From: Flavobacteriaceae bacterium
GTDB lineage: Bacteria; Bacteroidota; Bacteroidia; Flavobacteriales; Flavobacteriaceae
Length of the DNA: 42,260 bases
NCBI GenBank assembly: GCA_002698745.1
Contig: PAAD01000021.1
Span: 1-42,260 of the forward strand
Reading direction: 5' to 3'
Part shown: positions 1,921-42,260 of the stretch, piece after piece
Position numbering within the stretch: the stretch's first letter is position 1
How the letters are laid out: each line of letters starts with the position of its first letter
Made by a program: the position numbers and the translations under genes
The notes under the pieces: model-generated
Told to the model about the DNA's origin: nothing
Seen by the model: the letters and a program-made list of their open reading frames with translations, nothing else
Database searches by the model: none

Positions 1921-2549
1921 TGCAACCCGAACTTAAAAAAGCCGTTGATGCTGGCCTTGCATTACCTCTTATGGAGGCGTTTTACACTATTCAAGGTGAG
2001 GGATATCACAAAGGCAGTGCCGCTTTTTTTATTCGCATTGGCGGTTGTGATGTGGGTTGCCATTGGTGTGATGTCAAGGAAAGTTGGGATGCCAATTTAC
2101 ATCCCCCAACCTATATAGAAGAAATTGTGACCCAAGCTAAGTCTTATGCTGATACCGTAGTGGTTACTGGTGGGGAACCTCTCATGTGGAATATGAATCC
2201 GCTAACAGAAGCCCTGCAAGCTGCAGGAATGAAAACCCATATCGAGACTTCAGGCGCCTATCCTCTTTCTGGAAAATGGGATTGGATTTGCCTATCTCCA
2301 AAGAAGCGTATGCTACCTATGCCAGAAATTTACATTGCGGCTGATGAGTTGAAAGTGATTGTTTACAATAAAGACGACTTGCAGTTTGCCAAAAAACAAG
2401 CTTTAGGCGTTGTTGAATCCTGTAAGTTATATCTACAACCCGAGTGGAGTAGAAGAGACAAGACCATTCCGCTTATTGTCACATACGTACTAGAAAATCC
2501 CCAGTGGATGGCATCCTTGCAAACACATAAATACCTTAAAATACCATAG
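1920..2549 (+). CDS. queE: 7-carboxy-7-deazaguanine synthase (radical SAM)
   Basis: QueE converts 6-carboxy-tetrahydropterin to 7-carboxy-7-deazaguanine in the queuosine/preQ0 pathway. The 209-residue protein opens with the FYTIQGEG motif and has the radical-SAM cluster Cys43-x3-Cys47-x2-Cys50, the VTGGEP SAM-contact loop (about 83-87) and a later LKVIVYN segment, all typical of the family. The start overlaps the folD stop by one base, and the stop shares a base with the GTG of the next gene. The other queuosine genes are not in the window. Its placement beside folD may be simple gene packing, although both are pterin-related enzymes. Confidence 0.95.
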   Translation: MQPELKKAVDAGLALPLMEAFYTIQGEGYHKGSAAFFIRIGGCDVGCHWCDVKESWDANLHPPTYIEEIVTQAKSYADTVVVTGGEPLMWNMNPLTEALQAAGMKTHIETSGAYPLSGKWDWICLSPKKRMLPMPEIYIAADELKVIVYNKDDLQFAKKQALGVVESCKLYLQPEWSRRDKTIPLIVTYVLENPQWMASLQTHKYLKIP

Positions 2550-3040
2550 TGATAAACTTAGAAAAGCTACCCGAACATGCGGCCAAGGTTGCTTCAGCAA
2601 ATGCTAAATATTTAAAAAAGCTGAAGGCACGCAAACCCAAACAACTTGATAAGATAATGGGGGAGTTGCATGAAGAAGCTTTTCAAGAAATAGACTGCTT
2701 GTCCTGTGCCAACTGTTGTAAAACTACAGGACCTTTGTTAATTCCATCCGACATCAAGCGCATCAGTAAACGATTGCGCCTTAAGCCAAGCGAATTTGAA
2801 ACCCAATATTTGCGCGTTGATGAAGATGGTGATAAGGTGCTACAACAACTACCTTGCCCGTTTTTAGGCTCAGATAACTATTGCAGCATTTACGAAGACC
2901 GACCCAAAGCCTGTCGAGAATTTCCGCACACCGATAGTGCGAAATTCCATCGAATAACTAAACTAACAGCGAAGAACGTTGCGCTTTGTCCAGCGGTCTA
3001 TAGCATATTAGAACGACTAAAATCAGCTTTGCCACAATAA
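2549..3040 (+). CDS. YkgJ-type cysteine-cluster protein
   Basis: This small 163-residue protein belongs to the zinc- or iron-chelating YkgJ/CxxCxxCC family. Conserved cysteines are Cys50-x2-Cys53-x2-Cys56-Cys57, then Cys103, Cys112 and Cys122 (CPF...YCSIYEDRPKAC) and Cys147. The Y-E-x-R-P-x-x-C segment is the family hallmark. The exact molecular role of the family is not established; metal or Fe-S binding is the usual inference. Translation probably begins at GTG, whose first base is the last base of the queE TAG, so it is the last member of the ffh-folD-queE chain. There is no signal peptide, so it is cytoplasmic. The N-terminal 45 residues are lysine-rich and helical. Confidence 0.85.
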   Translation: MINLEKLPEHAAKVASANAKYLKKLKARKPKQLDKIMGELHEEAFQEIDCLSCANCCKTTGPLLIPSDIKRISKRLRLKPSEFETQYLRVDEDGDKVLQQLPCPFLGSDNYCSIYEDRPKACREFPHTDSAKFHRITKLTAKNVALCPAVYSILERLKSALPQ

Positions 3041-3069
3041 GTATTACATTTAACGTTTAATTATAGAGA

Positions 3070-4296
3070 GTGAGTTTTACTTGGTTTATCGCAAAGCGTA
3101 TCATTGGAAACCGAAAGCACAACCGCAGTGTTTCTGGGCCTATAATTTCCATTGGAATCATTGCCATTGCTTTGGGGGTGATTACCATGCTTATTGCCTT
3201 GGGCACAGGGGTTGGACTTAAAAATGAAATCGGAGAAAAAGTAGCCGCATTTAGCGGTCATATACGTTTAACTGCTCTTGGAAATAGCCAGCATCAACAA
3301 ACCCTAAAGCCACTAGATAATGCAATTACTTACCAAAATCAACTGCATCAATTTCCCAATACGCTTGCAGTTCAGTCAGTTGCTTATGTACCAGGCGTTA
3401 TTCTAAACAATACTGCATTTGACGGCATTATTTATAAGGGCATTGACGAAAATTTTAATACCAACTTCTTTTCCTTTTTTGGAATTGCTGACACTATTGC
3501 ATTACCAACCAAAAATGATATTTGGATATCGTCAGAATTGGCAAAAAAACTAACTCTAAAAGTAGGGGACAGGGTACCGATTTACTTTGCTTCTTCACAA
3601 ACATCTATGCCCAAGCGCAGAAGTTGTACAATTATTGGTTTATTTGACACAGGTTTTGCAGACTATGATAAAACCTATGTTATAGGGCATTTGGATATTA
3701 TCCGTTCATTGTATGGCTGGGATAAAAATCAAATAGGTGCTTTTGAGATTTTTCTTAATGATGACACCAACTTAGACTTTGATACTAATAACATTTATGA
3801 CAGCATTGATGCCATTGTAGATGTAAAGCACGTTGAAGATCAGTTTCCAGAAATTTTTAGTTGGATCAAATTATTTGGCACAAACATATCCTTAATTATA
3901 ATCATAATGATAATCGTGGGTGGTGTTAACATGATTACGGCGTTGTTAGTTCTTATTTTGGAGCAGACACAACTTATTGGCATAACACGAGTGTTGGGGG
4001 CTAAGGTGGGTTCGTTGCAGCAACTCTTCCTAATACAAGGTGCTTATTTGATTGGTGTTGGACTTGTTTGGGGCAACTTAATTGGCTTGGGTTTATTGTT
4101 CTTACAACACCAGACAGGTTTTATTTCACTTGATCCAAATACTTATTACGTTAAAGAAGTGCCCGTCTATATGGATGTTACCACAGTGCTATGGCTCAAC
4201 GCTCTAACACTGGCTGTCTGCATGGTACTTTTGTTGTTGCCTTCTTTTATTATTTCAAGGATACCACCAACACAAGTACTAAAAATCAATCCATAG
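3070..4296 (+). CDS. LolC/LolE-family ABC transporter permease
   Basis: This 408-residue protein has the FtsX/MacB/LolE layout: one N-terminal membrane helix (about 25-50), a large periplasmic domain (about 55-265) and three C-terminal helices (about 270-400), the last ending in a cytoplasmic IPPTQVLKINP tail. Such permeases pair with an ATPase of the LolD type to release lipoproteins from the inner membrane toward the outer membrane. No ATPase is adjacent, so the partner would be encoded elsewhere. The start is GTG (SFTWFIAKRI follows). A near-consensus -7 element (TACATTTA, 3045-3052) lies 17 bases upstream. Lipoprotein release is inferred from family; another substrate cannot be excluded. 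Confidence 0.85.
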   Translation: MSFTWFIAKRIIGNRKHNRSVSGPIISIGIIAIALGVITMLIALGTGVGLKNEIGEKVAAFSGHIRLTALGNSQHQQTLKPLDNAITYQNQLHQFPNTLAVQSVAYVPGVILNNTAFDGIIYKGIDENFNTNFFSFFGIADTIALPTKNDIWISSELAKKLTLKVGDRVPIYFASSQTSMPKRRSCTIIGLFDTGFADYDKTYVIGHLDIIRSLYGWDKNQIGAFEIFLNDDTNLDFDTNNIYDSIDAIVDVKHVEDQFPEIFSWIKLFGTNISLIIIIMIIVGGVNMITALLVLILEQTQLIGITRVLGAKVGSLQQLFLIQGAYLIGVGLVWGNLIGLGLLFLQHQTGFISLDPNTYYVKEVPVYMDVTTVLWLNALTLAVCMVLLLLPSFIISRIPPTQVLKINP

Positions 4297-38645: not shown

Positions 38646-39479
38646 TTAGAGGTCACGGCGTTTTAATATGTGATATGTCAATGCATAAAAAATATAGCAC
38701 CAAGCCGATACAATTAGCATGTCCAAAAGTTGTACGTTTGTGTTCTTGGTCATTTGTCCGCCTACTTGCTCTGCTAGGTTACTTACCGCAGAGAGGCGTG
38801 AAAAAGGTTCGCGCACCAAATTGCTCATGGCATTAAGCGGAAAAATGCGGAATACATCTTCTGCATTTAACCATTCTGGCGACTGCCATTTGAGCATGCC
38901 ATAGCAAAAGCCCTCAAACATCTGCCATATACCCAAGAAGCCAAGGGCAAAAGCCGATCGTTTTATTGCTGTACCTAAAAACAAACAGAAGCCAAAAAAA
39001 GCCATCAGTTTAATGAAATATGCAACCAGGTATTCCAAGTCTTGTATGATGATGGAAAATTCGTTGTAATTCGAATAAATCAGCCCAAGTATCATGGAGA
39101 CTACAAAAATAAATAATGTAGATATGGCGGCAAGGGAAAAAATCATCACCCACTTGGAATGTAGAAACTCACGTTTGCTAAGTCCGTCTATCAGGTTTTG
39201 CTTGATGGTTTTGTTGCTGTATTCGTTTGCTGTCATGGAAACGATAACCACGGCTAAGAATATCTTAAACCATGCGCCTATATAAGCGTTAAAATGCCAT
39301 ATATAAGGGAAGTTAAAGATGCCTTGCTCTGCCATATGAAACTTTATGGGGCCAATGTCAAACTTAATGGCAGCAATAAGCGCAATTGAGGTGAGCAATA
39401 TAAAATAAGCACCAATCAGGATGCGGCTTGAGCGATTGGCACGTAGCTTTTCGAATTCAATTAAAAACAATCGTTTCAT
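38646..39479 (-). CDS. ABC-2 type transporter permease
   Basis: This is a 277-residue membrane protein with six predicted helices: about 19-38, 65-88, 108-132, 150-170, 172-190 and 250-268. It has the ABC-2 layout, a cytoplasmic N-terminus (MKRLFLIEFEKLRANRSS) and an amphipathic segment after the second helix (NEYSNKTIKQNLIDGLSKREFLHSKW is the loop). It overlaps the ATPase gene by four bases (ATGA), so the two form one exporter. The substrate is unknown; this type is seen with antibiotic, bacitracin or polysaccharide export and in many uncharacterised flavobacterial pairs. Confidence 0.88.
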   Translation of the reverse strand: MKRLFLIEFEKLRANRSSRILIGAYFILLTSIALIAAIKFDIGPIKFHMAEQGIFNFPYIWHFNAYIGAWFKIFLAVVIVSMTANEYSNKTIKQNLIDGLSKREFLHSKWVMIFSLAAISTLFIFVVSMILGLIYSNYNEFSIIIQDLEYLVAYFIKLMAFFGFCLFLGTAIKRSAFALGFLGIWQMFEGFCYGMLKWQSPEWLNAEDVFRIFPLNAMSNLVREPFSRLSAVSNLAEQVGGQMTKNTNVQLLDMLIVSAWCYIFYALTYHILKRRDL

Positions 39480-40378
39480 CGCTTATTTTTTTTGGTTAGA
39501 ATTAAGAACTGTTCTTCTAGGCTTTTGTGTTTTTTTGCCAAATGTGTCAGTACAATTCCTTTGCTAGTCAGTGCCTTGCTTAAGGTTTCAATTTCTAGCG
39601 CTTTATTGGGGAAAGCAAATACCAATGTACCTTGTCGTTCTACTGTCTTAATGTGTTTGTTTTCTTCTAAGGCTTCCAGTAAGGCAGCATCGTCAGTTGC
39701 ATCAAGCTCAAAATACCCATGGTCGGTGGTCAATGCGGTTACAGGCCCAAAATAGATTTGTTTGCCTTTTTGCAATACCAGCACATGCGAGCATACTTTT
39801 TCTACCTCGTCCAAAAGATGGGAGGCCAGTAGAATGGTGGTGCCTTTGGCAGCAATTTTAAAAATGATATCCCTAACCTGTGCAATTCCTTTAGGATCTA
39901 GCCCGTTGGTGGGTTCGTCAAGAATGAGAATTTCGGGATCGTTGAGCAAGGCGGAGGCAATGGCCAGTCGCTGCTTCATCCCGACGGAATAGGTTTTAAA
40001 TTTGTCATGTTTTCGATCTAACAAATCCACCAATTCGAGTTTTTCTTCAATTTTGGATTGGGGTACTTCCTTTATCCTACAAACCAATCGTAAGTTTTTC
40101 GCTGCCGTCATAAATGGATAGAAATTGGGTCGTTCGATTATAGCCCCTACACGCTTTAGTGCTTGATATGTGCTTTGGGTTCCGCCAAACCAAGAAAAAT
40201 TCCCTCCGGTTGGATTGACCACATTAAGAATCATTCCTAGAGTTGTTGATTTGCCACTTCCGTTTGGCCCCAACATCCCATATATATTACCTTTTTCTAT
40301 GGAAAAGCTAAGTTGATTTACAGCTGTTATATGACCAAATTTTTTGGTCAGTTCATTTACGTTTAGAATGGTTTCCAT
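39476..40378 (-). CDS. ABC transporter ATP-binding protein (ABC-2 partner)
   Basis: The 300-residue ATPase has Walker A GPNGSGKSTT (about 37-46), a Q-loop region, signature YSVGMKQRLAIASALL (SVGMKQR in place of LSGGQ), Walker B ILILDEPTNGLDP and switch His in LLASHLL. The C-terminal ~80 residues form an extra DrrA/CcmA-like domain found in drug or lipid exporters. It starts divergently from the kinase-like gene 56 bases away; no exact -7 box is seen on this strand. It pairs with the overlapping permease. Confidence 0.93.
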   Translation of the reverse strand: METILNVNELTKKFGHITAVNQLSFSIEKGNIYGMLGPNGSGKSTTLGMILNVVNPTGGNFSWFGGTQSTYQALKRVGAIIERPNFYPFMTAAKNLRLVCRIKEVPQSKIEEKLELVDLLDRKHDKFKTYSVGMKQRLAIASALLNDPEILILDEPTNGLDPKGIAQVRDIIFKIAAKGTTILLASHLLDEVEKVCSHVLVLQKGKQIYFGPVTALTTDHGYFELDATDDAALLEALEENKHIKTVERQGTLVFAFPNKALEIETLSKALTSKGIVLTHLAKKHKSLEEQFLILTKKNKR

Positions 40379-40434: not shown

Positions 40435-41499
40435 ATGAGCGATATGCTAATTACAAAAAAAAAACCAACATACCCCATCAATCCATTCCTTGGGGATTAT
40501 TTGGAATTGTACTCACGGGCTTATCAAATCCCAGTATTTTACGATGATTTGCTTCGCTTTTCAGGTTCAGTGGCGGTGATGAATAAGCACGACCAAGATA
40601 GCTTGTGGGTGCGAGTGTTTTACTCAGACAGCGACCGTAAGGAAATAGACGAGCAGCTAAAGCGCGTTTATGCCTTGCTGCATTCAGACGGAAGTGCCAT
40701 GACCATTCCCTACTTAAGTGTAGATGCCATAGACTATTGCACCTTTGGTAACTCAAAGCCATTTCGAATTAAAGTGCGGAATACGTTAAACGACAATTTT
40801 ATTTATTTCTATGTAAAAAAAGCAGATGCTTCACGAGTTTACGGCTTAGAGCTTGAGCATATGCTTTCACCATACAACCTTAACTTTTTGGTGAACAAGA
40901 ATACGCTTATTGAAGAGCATATTGCTGGTATTCCAGGTGATGAGTTTATCAAAGAATTTTTACCAAAATGCAGTAAATCTGAACGTAACCAAATAGCCAA
41001 ATCTTTTGTCAAATTCAACGAGCGCTGCATGATACGTTTGCTGGGTGATATGCGTTCTTACAATTATTTGATTATCCCCATTCACGATTTTGATAAGGTT
41101 ATTTATAAAATCCGAGCCATTGATTTTGATCAGCAGTGCTATGAAGGTAATTTAAAGATTTACCGCCCTCAGTTTTTTAAGGAAAATTTCGAAATGGTCA
41201 TGCTTGTTAAGGATCATTTGACTAAAACATCAATTGACCAATATAAAATTGAGGAACGGGCTACTGTAGCTCGTCGTATTTTAGGTAACGAGACGAGGTT
41301 AACACATTTACTTAAATGTATGTTGAACGACCATATTTCAACCCCTGATAAGATTGAACAGTTGCGTGAGGAGGTTTATGAACTCACCAAACAGATATCG
41401 TTTAAAAAGAGTAAGTCTATGGGTGATATTATGCGCGCTTCATTTCATTTTGTAAAGCGCAACTACGAAAACCACGAAATGCTTCGTGTGGACAATTAA
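40435..41499 (+). CDS. Conserved-type hypothetical with kinase-like motifs
   Basis: I do not recognise a named family for this 354-residue soluble protein. Two segments match the catalytic core of the protein-kinase-like/APH superfamily: LLGDMRSYNYLI (Asp205, Asn210), with the D-x4-N spacing of the catalytic loop, and, about 20 residues later, AIDFDQQ (Asp230), equivalent to the metal-binding DFG aspartate. VKK (128-129) and ELE (139-141) could supply the usual Lys-Glu pair, less surely. The His normally before the GD is Leu. The C-terminal ~110 residues are helical and basic. No membrane segment or signal peptide is seen. The start is either ATG 40435 or 40444. Its stop overlaps that of the convergent gene by four bases. 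Confidence 0.7.
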   Translation: MSDMLITKKKPTYPINPFLGDYLELYSRAYQIPVFYDDLLRFSGSVAVMNKHDQDSLWVRVFYSDSDRKEIDEQLKRVYALLHSDGSAMTIPYLSVDAIDYCTFGNSKPFRIKVRNTLNDNFIYFYVKKADASRVYGLELEHMLSPYNLNFLVNKNTLIEEHIAGIPGDEFIKEFLPKCSKSERNQIAKSFVKFNERCMIRLLGDMRSYNYLIIPIHDFDKVIYKIRAIDFDQQCYEGNLKIYRPQFFKENFEMVMLVKDHLTKTSIDQYKIEERATVARRILGNETRLTHLLKCMLNDHISTPDKIEQLREEVYELTKQISFKKSKSMGDIMRASFHFVKRNYENHEMLRVDN

Positions 41500-41993
41500 T
41501 ACCAGTCTTGGGAGCTATCTTCTATGTCTTCGTCTAGGCCATTTTCCTCAACAGAATCATCATTCCACGCATCTTTATCAGCACTAAATGTTTTTTCTGG
41601 GGCTTCTTCCGGAACATCTCCGTGGGTATAAATAAGCATAGGGTAGGTGTTTCCAGGTTTTGGCTTATCGGTTTCAATTAGCTCAACAAAAAAGGTCCAT
41701 AAGTTTAAAAAATCATAGACGTAAAGCATTTTTGACACATCGGGAAATACGGAGTTAAGCGGAGTGTCGCTCATACGACGAACACTTTCATCCCCAATGT
41801 CAAACAATGAAATCGAATCTCCTTGCTGCCATTCTTTATCGCTTTCATAGAAGATGGCCATTTCTGAACCTCCAAAGCCAAAGGCTTGTGTGATGGCGTT
41901 ATGGAAATCTTCAAAGTTGTCCGTTTCTTGAAGTGCAATGTCTCTAAAAACGTCTTCTTTGGTGTCTAAAATAAGTCTAAAATGATAAATCAT
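41496..41993 (-). CDS. Plasmid pRiA4b ORF-3-like family protein
   Basis: This 165-residue protein begins MIYHFRLILDTKEDVFRDIAL and continues with FEDFHNAITQAFGF and MLYVYDFLNLWTFFVELIE, the pattern of the pRiA4b ORF-3-like (IS1096 TnpR-like passenger) domain. The 'YxYDFGDxW' core is present as YVYDFLNLWTF. The function is unknown, and despite the name there is no transposon here. The last ~35 residues are strongly acidic (DDSVEENGLDEDIEDSSQDWY). The ATG at 41993 overlaps the ctaA 3' end by 17 bases, so it is probably translationally coupled to it; the longer TTG start was rejected. Confidence 0.85.
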   Translation of the reverse strand: MIYHFRLILDTKEDVFRDIALQETDNFEDFHNAITQAFGFGGSEMAIFYESDKEWQQGDSISLFDIGDESVRRMSDTPLNSVFPDVSKMLYVYDFLNLWTFFVELIETDKPKPGNTYPMLIYTHGDVPEEAPEKTFSADKDAWNDDSVEENGLDEDIEDSSQDWY

Positions 41994-42260
41994 AGTTGTG
42001 TAATTTAATGCGTAAAATCCAGTAGAGTTGTACACCAAACAGCAGCGTGGCTACTACTAGGTGTAGTGGTTGGGTTGCGAATGGGAAGTCGAAATAGAAC
42101 ATGGCAATGCCAAGTGCTACTTCACCTCCGATTAGCCAAAGTATCACTCTGATAAAAAACTTTTCTAGTTGTTCTTTGACCACACTTACAAACAACCAAG
42201 CATTTGCAAGGAGTACGAGAATGGACAAGCTTCTGTGGATATAAAAGCTGAGTTCTGGAG
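41977..42260 (-). CDS. ctaA: Heme A synthase (COX15/CtaA), C-terminal part
   Basis: CtaA oxidises heme O to heme A for cytochrome c oxidase in the membrane. Only the last ~94 residues are in the window; the gene runs in from the right edge. The visible part reads PELSFYIHRSLSILVLLANAWLF, with the heme-ligand-type His in IHRS, followed by two or three more membrane helices (QPLHLVVATLLFGVQLYWILRI near the end, with a second conserved His in QPLHL). It shares 17 bases with the downstream pRiA4b ORF-3-like gene. The assignment rests on the conserved IHRS and QPLHL motifs and helix pattern. Confidence 0.8.
   Translation of the reverse strand, partial: PELSFYIHRSLSILVLLANAWLFVSVVKEQLEKFFIRVILWLIGGEVALGIAMFYFDFPFATQPLHLVVATLLFGVQLYWILRIKLHNYDLSF

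Follow-up and report, generated by a model that had tools for sequence, protein, structure and literature searches.

An invariant catalytic core in a kinase-fold protein family of Bacteroidota, with a possible link to bacillithiol metabolism

We found that a 354-residue protein encoded in the window (the whole stretch of DNA that was analysed, 42,260 nucleotides from a Flavobacteriaceae bacterium) belongs to a kinase-fold family whose main catalytic residues are invariant. The family occurs in 99 of 395 genomes sampled across the phylum (one match, in G305, being a fragment with a stop), and neither Pfam nor NCBIfam has a kinase name for it. Our preferred reading, put forward tentatively, is that the protein is an active kinase using ATP, from an unnamed PKL family, and works most likely in bacillithiol metabolism. 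Its parts differ in strength. The predicted models make the PKL fold very nearly certain; from the conserved residues we infer, with good confidence, an active phosphotransferase that would use ATP; and the tie to bacillithiol, suggested by gene arrangement in another class of the phylum, falls slightly short of an even chance.

The open reading frame named in the initial annotation is present as given, on the forward strand and with an ATG start. Pfam matches also agree with the neighbours it described, a divergent ABC-2 pair and a convergently overlapping pRiA4b ORF-3-like gene.

40435..41499, + strand: ORF of the PKL-fold protein, 354 aa, ATG start; relatives align over most of its length
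39476..40378, - strand: ABC transporter ATPase, divergent neighbour, context only (PF00005, E 5e-30; recurs in 57 of the 80 loci described below)
38646..39479, - strand: ABC-2 permease, context only (PF12679, E 1e-11)
41496..42038, - strand: PRiA4_ORF3-family gene, convergent, context only (PF07929, E 1e-14; recurs in 71 of the 80 loci)

The frame of the PRiA4_ORF3 gene and the kinase stop overlap convergently by 4 bp. The order after the kinase (window 41496-42258) recurs in the 80 loci, with the PRiA4_ORF3 gene followed by a membrane protein, the end of which matches COX15-CtaA; beyond this COX15-CtaA-like gene we saw, by eye, CCA-transferase- and Sua5-like genes, all on the opposite strand to the kinase. 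The ABC exporter and the pRiA4b gene were considered as partners of the kinase and rejected, because both recurrent clusters lie on the opposite strand and are confined to part of the kinase family: neither was present in any of 36 loci of other lineages (two of the 36 belong to the window's own family). Both neighbours are probably uninformative on function.

The 80 loci were those kept from a scan of genome contigs with at least 580 of 593 stretches confirmed. The taxa given in their titles are Flavobacteriaceae or genera that we take to belong to it, 'Cryomorphaceae', or simply Bacteroidetes/Bacteroidota. The kinase was found in 35 of the whole genomes of 60 relatives and in 15 of the 17 genomes (the window's own counted) of the window's small-genome genus, g1. 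In the matching genomes of the 60 relatives and of the phylum sample it is a single-copy gene, except in G149, which has two; a second match in G415 was a chance match. One of the two G149 copies (L144, L145) shares no more than about 41 percent identity with the window protein, and both keep the active-site motifs. Fragments with internal stops were seen in G305, G451 and G460 and at locus L169, which points to decay of the gene in some lineages. A mobile gene was also considered and rejected, there being no kinase match at E ≤1 among 72,556 records of plasmids and 50,697 of phages.

Conservation was assessed in an alignment (A1) of 80 chosen relatives and the window protein, 81 sequences in all, the relatives being 37-86 percent identical to it. 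Sequences above 95 percent identity to the window, those that nearly duplicated another at 82 percent and those with X or an internal stop were left out, as were L168 (a chance match of 30 percent over residues 189-302, by eye from an unrelated family) and the fragment L169; a wider set of 178 sequences still included L168, and the window sequence twice. The following features of the protein were defined from the alignment and from the predicted model described below.

40750..40767, + strand: loop N106-S-K-P-F-R111 between strands 94-102 and 110-116; N106, P109 and R111 invariant (conservation and model)
40816..40836, + strand: K128-x2-D131-x2-R134, the beta-3 lysine and the start of the next helix; K128, D131 and R134 invariant (strand 121-129, helix 132-144)
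40849..40857, + strand: E139-L-E141 in the helix after beta-3; E141 in 81/81, E139 in 79/81 (alignment)
40912..40920, + strand: E160-E161-H162, closing the strand expected to run into the hinge; no variation at E160 or H162 (model and alignment)
41041..41064, + strand: catalytic loop L203-G-D205-M-[R/H]-S-Y-N210; D205 and N210 in 81/81
41119..41136, + strand: metal-binding loop I229-D230-F-D232-Q-Q234, DFG-like; D230, F231, D232 and Q233 in 81/81
41179..41469, + strand: C-lobe helices 249-345 (AlphaFold2 model)

The two motifs on which the initial annotation had based a kinase fold, GDMRSYN (D205, N210) and AIDFDQQ (D230), are at the residues it gave, within LLGDMRSYN (residues 202-210) and RAIDFDQQ (residues 227-234). 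Their spacing of about 20 residues holds for N210 to D230 (20), with 25 from D205 to D230. D205, N210 and D230, which it had proposed to check for free variation among homologues, are invariant in all 81 sequences, as are K128 and E141. Invariant columns number 34 of the 354, and D131, R134, E160, H162, F231, D232 and Q233 are also among them, while position 207 is Arg in 64 sequences and His in 17. The hypergeometric chance that all five named positions fall among the 34 is 6e-6, with two of the five (K128 and E141) chosen after the alignment was seen; for the three residues of the initial annotation it is 8e-4. A loose pattern for the motif pair, composed after the motif was known, had a single match, the kinase ORF, in the 15,927 aa of the window's stop-to-stop frames of at least 100 aa.

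Two familiar residues are replaced. The Leu reported in place of the usual His was borne out, L203 lying at the position of the HxD His and being Leu in 81/81, and the Gly of DFG is Asp (D232), again in 81/81. An excerpt of PMC1821047 lists the PKL key residues, in PKA numbering, as G52, K72, E91, P104, H158, H164, D166, N171, D184 and D220, and states that nine of the ten are lost in some PKL family or other. The beta-3 Lys, the helix-C Glu, the catalytic Asp with an Asn five residues on and the metal-binding Asp are present in the window protein; H164, the His of HxD, is replaced by Leu. The initial annotation had left the choice between an active kinase, an AMPylase-like enzyme and a pseudokinase, and we favour the first because Lys, Glu, catalytic Asp, Asn and metal-binding Asp are all conserved.

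We then examined the predicted structure. The AlphaFold2 model of the window protein, made with A1, had a pLDDT of 92.7 and a pTM of 0.89 and shows a two-lobed kinase fold. The same two values were obtained for a second model, that of a member (L152, alignment A3) sharing 41 percent identity with the window protein, but the models are not independent, because A1 and A3 have most rows in common. In the first model the N-lobe elements follow kinase order (strands 94-102, 110-116, 121-129, 151-154 and 157-161, and helix 132-144), with K128 in the third strand, E139 and E141 in the helix, and a hairpin (211-228) between N210 and D230. The N106-R111 loop would take the place of the nucleotide-binding P-loop, and E139, E141 or both are candidate partners of K128.

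A structure prediction with fold search had been suggested as a check. In addition to the confident two-lobed model, it returned 224 PDB matches at E ≤0.001 in Foldseek, the best 50 all being kinases or pseudokinases. The first was a TYK2 pseudokinase/kinase chain (E 1.4e-5), and TYK2 pseudokinase domains filled the first rows. For the second model there were 48 matches at E ≤0.001; Drosophila Vps34 took ranks 1-6 (best E 7.6e-6) and TYK2 appeared no earlier than rank 21. TM-scores in these Foldseek alignments were low (0.19-0.40 on the model), and rmsd was large (7.7-20 A). The best 1000 Foldseek chains were realigned with VIA-align 2, rows within Z 1 being treated as ties. The best 50 rows for the first model were PI3K, PI4K and PIKK chains only, among them Vps34 7rsp_B (Z 13.5, rmsd 4.3, 269 aligned, model 17-348) and PI4KIIIbeta 8q6g (Z 13.2, rmsd 4.3, 265 aligned, model 30-349). 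Vps34 2x6f_A came top for the second model (Z 13.1, rmsd 4.6, 275 aligned). For either model, and with both programs, the best 50 PDB rows were made up entirely of kinases or pseudokinases. In the structural lists the PIKKs CtTel1, mTOR, SMG1 and ATM stand level with the lipid kinases, and a viral structure library gave giant-virus Ser/Thr kinases in the first rows and a PI3K at rank 4. HipA and APH were absent from the best 50 rows; they were perhaps not among the chains preselected by Foldseek and are not thereby excluded. The initial annotation had pointed to APH, choline-kinase and HipA-like enzymes. The motif spacing it relied on stands, as a mark of the PKL fold, whereas the nearest folds among those compared are PI3K, PI4K and PIKK rather than APH or HipA. 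On these models a PI3K-like shape is the best available placement, as distinct from membership.

Sequence profiles gave no corresponding assignment. Thirteen Pfam families match any of the 81 members at E ≤0.04 (best 0.0011), none of them a kinase family; PF00454 (PI3K/PI4K), PF07804 (HipA_C), PF01636 (APH) and the SelO (AMPylase) family are not among them, and PF00454 also had no match in any of 148 genomes of the phylum. At the looser E ≤5 the matches came to 34 families, 25 of them listed. NCBIfam yielded four matches at E ≤0.01, each by one member only and with no kinase family among them (best 0.00066), and with PHROGs the three members tested had no match below 0.04. PADLOC (E ≤1) returned nine families, led by Cas5fv (a single member, 7.2e-5) and including CARF_HEPN (3.6e-4) and Specificity_I (12 members, best 0.0012); we took these for chance matches, because they are scattered and at odds with the fold. 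A sequence search of the PDB gave nothing useful.

The HMM-HMM comparison with PKL families that had likewise been proposed was run for PI3/4K, HipA and APH; the pieces of Vps34, p110gamma and mTOR used on the PI3/4K side were checked against PDB chains. The E-values were 0.29 for the PI3/4K set of three with the P-loop, 0.33 for the PI3/4K set A2, 0.12 for HipA and 0.13 for APH, and shuffled targets scored as well in 21/60, 29/59, 8/60 and 6/60 cases, respectively. Thirteen unrelated families gave E 0.22-0.82, and for two unrelated neighbour families shuffles were as good in 20/60 and 23/60. The best register touched the catalytic loop for A2, HipA and APH, though not for the P-loop-extended PI3/4K set. 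The single Vps34 piece (E 0.49) set GDMRSYN on GDRHLDN and AIDFD on HIDFG. None of the profile-profile scores is significant, and at the level of sequence this comparison cannot place the kinase within the superfamily.

A more telling neighbour than the ABC-2 and pRiA4b genes to which the initial annotation had drawn attention is bshA, which we saw beside the kinase only in the class of genome G116, a class of the phylum other than the window's (Bacteroidia). By tblastn, bshA lies upstream on the same strand in 10 of 14 loci of that class. Among 195 genomes searched, 61 had the kinase, two of them (G451, G460) as decayed fragments; in 36 of the remaining 59, coordinates place bshA directly upstream on the same strand, with 11-164 bp between the aligned ends. 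These pairs come from eight families (f28, f40, f44, f54, f56, f58, f68 and f71). Four further pairs, seen at loci L218, L228, L235 and L240 (genomes G456, G539, G486 and G492), bring the total to 40/59. A scan of five of the upstream genes, each of a different family, put every one above the cut-off of the BshA equivalog TIGR03999 (539-563 bits against 273.7). In 19 of the 59, bshA does not adjoin the kinase. They comprise every f52 genome (10), the two of f33 and seven more; in those seven bshA is on another contig (four), 981 or 3343 bp upstream (two) or a partial gene at a contig start (one).

At locus L158 bshA and the kinase are co-directional, and the frames that bound the pair on either side lie on the opposite strand and are found again at other loci. 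The pair is arranged, close and co-directional, as a two-gene operon would be, and as such a unit the kinase may belong to the bacillithiol pathway. Gene order is generally conserved in this class, however: of the other L158 and L152 frames tested, the majority were present at between 4 and 9 of 10 loci, a further one at 1 and another at 2, so that the adjacency of bshA is distinctive only by its strand and spacing. A GloB-like MBL-fold gene, below the TIGR03413 cut-off, faces the kinase convergently from its downstream side at 32 of the 44 loci compared, and three of the 32 have no bshA. The 44 loci represent 35 genomes (nine sampled twice), with bshA in 30/35 and the convergent MBL gene in 26/35, and 30 of the 44 are best-scoring loci, not a random draw. 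The MBL gene was seen at L152, L153, L158, L161, L163 and L164, and also at L162, L166 and L167; three f52 loci keep it though their bshA is elsewhere.

In the class Bacteroidia loci that were checked, the kinase flanks (up to 5 kb) held no bshA. Eight of these loci had only partial matches to the BshA query, of 25-34 percent; we took them for other glycosyltransferases, because genuine BshA of Flavobacteriaceae shares 47-50 percent identity with that query. In the loci of other lineages that were examined the genes next to the kinase vary, and none was seen to recur on its strand except in three f18 loci (L146, L150, L157), where a class II fructose-bisphosphate aldolase gene follows it on the same strand. 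At the f33 locus L155 a 477-aa MBL and rhodanese fusion (Pfam; 2520-3954, - strand) lies two genes downstream of the kinase. It recalls persulfide dioxygenase-sulfurtransferases, and the gene next to it clusters with it, a sulfur theme in a locus without adjacent bshA.

The window's genome has bshA, bshC and a PIG-L gene (candidate bshB), all on contigs other than that of the kinase. Co-occurrence was tried as a phyletic signal and was uninformative, BshC being present in 384/395 genomes and BshA in 146/148; the kinase was absent from all 11 BshC-negative genomes, which is weak evidence. Because the bsh genes are much more widespread than the kinase (99/395), the pathway does not need it, and its part would be an optional one, in tailoring or control. 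Among the open-licence papers listed by literature searches, none described a bacillithiol kinase or the kinase family.

On our preferred reading, ATP would bind between the two lobes, where it would be gripped by the N106-R111 loop and by K128 in a pair with E139 or E141. The catalytic base would be D205, and Mg would be coordinated by N210 and D230. The acceptor might be bacillithiol, a sugar intermediate of the BshA pathway or, less likely, BshA itself, and the role in Flavobacteriaceae would be the same as in the class of G116. That the substrate is a small molecule of the bacillithiol pathway we infer only with clear doubt. It is less likely still that this is a bacterial kinase of PI3K/PIKK-like fold which phosphorylates bacillithiol or a BshA-made precursor, giving, in a large part of Bacteroidota, an undescribed phospho-thiol or a phosphorylation switch on a protective thiol. 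Such an enzyme would also be a bacterial relative, in shape, of the PI3K/PIKK branch, which is regarded as mainly eukaryotic. If the link to bacillithiol is true, a phosphorylation step would be added to a broadly distributed class of thiols.

Several observations weigh against this reading. They are the general synteny in the class of G116, the 19 genomes of that class and the whole of the Bacteroidia loci checked where bshA does not adjoin the kinase, the replaced HxD His and DFG Gly, the lack of a sequence profile linking the protein to a kinase family, a spread far below that of BshC and BshA, and the low TM-scores and large rmsd in Foldseek. The conserved gene order would be accounted for if the protein were an active protein kinase, a PIKK-like or HipA-like regulator, and its place beside bshA were inherited without functional meaning. 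The structural ranking of PIKKs with lipid kinases is consistent with this, as is the lack, elsewhere, of any recurrent same-strand neighbour other than the f18 aldolase. Against it, the model shows no sign of an extra domain for recruiting substrates, nearly its whole length being taken up by the aligned range; the gene is single copy except in G149, unlike expanded regulatory kinases; and neither Pfam nor NCBIfam gave a protein-kinase profile match. We regard this alternative as fairly unlikely. A little less probable is an active kinase of a small molecule or lipid headgroup with no relation to bacillithiol. PI3K and PI4K as the nearest folds compared and the shared spacing of K-x2-D-x2-R and GDx[R/H]x2N would fit such an enzyme, and its presence in 15 of the 17 small g1 genomes is what one would expect of a housekeeping metabolic enzyme, yet the bshA pair in eight families would be left unaccounted for. 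Inositol lipids in particular are at odds with the genomes. Inositol-1-phosphate synthase (PF01658) was found in none of the 60 relatives, 35 of them with the kinase and several incomplete, while the control, Bacteroides ihuae, matched; a phosphoinositide substrate is therefore unlikely. A phosphoinositide kinase proper, in spite of Vps34 and PI4KIIIbeta being the nearest folds compared, was disfavoured and seems to us most improbable, given also the missing PF00454 matches in members and genomes and the replacement by A, P, S or G of the His that precedes the DFG Asp in PI3/4K.

The last alternative is that the protein transfers no phosphate, being an AMPylase-like enzyme or a pseudokinase. 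The Leu and Asp that replace the HxD His and DFG Gly throughout the alignment would suit it, and TYK2 pseudokinase domains lead the Foldseek list of the first model. No variation was seen, however, at the positions that ordinarily serve to bind Mg-ATP and to activate the acceptor; Vps34 rather than TYK2 leads for the second model, and structural realignment ranks PI3K-type kinases top for both. Moreover, according to the excerpt of PMC1821047, nine of the ten key residues are lost in some PKL family or other. We consider this reading improbable, and an active kinase with a possible role in bacillithiol metabolism remains the one we prefer.

The KINtaro database (PMC10870513) collects 72 PKL families, 32 of them without a link to the superfamily in established databases. 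Among known systems, PI3K, PI4K and PIKK enzymes offer the nearest solved folds of those compared for both models (e.g. Vps34, PI4KIIIbeta). Vps34, p110gamma and mTOR have K-x2-[DE]-x2-R after beta-3 and a G-D-x-[R/H]-x2-N loop, each with the same spacing as in the window protein. The likeness has limits, since identity in the structural alignments is 8-14 percent and PF00454 gives no match; where PI3/4K have DRH..N and HIDFG, the family has GDM[R/H]xxN and [A/P/S/G]-[I/M/L]-D-F-D, the His two residues before the DFG Asp having become A, P, S or G. APH and choline kinases (PF01636), also of the PKL superfamily, share D-x4-N and ID[FW]-type loops with the kinase but differ in keeping the HxD His, and no profile match connects the two. 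HipA (PF07804) is, like it, a compact bacterial PKL kinase, and the profile-profile register sets GDMRSYN on its NDDHTKN-type loop. For the proposed role the closest parallel lies within the thiol pathway itself. As described in an excerpt of PMC6282198, bacillithiols are apparently the most broadly distributed low-molecular-weight thiols, bacillithiol is N-methylated in a Polaribacter strain, and nmbA occurs in about 31 percent of bacillithiol-positive Bacteroidetes. Its product NmbA, the N-methyl-bacillithiol synthase, is a SAM methyltransferase, unlike the kinase, but by the same excerpt it is an optional and patchily distributed tailoring enzyme of some Bacteroidetes, as the kinase would be in the role proposed here.
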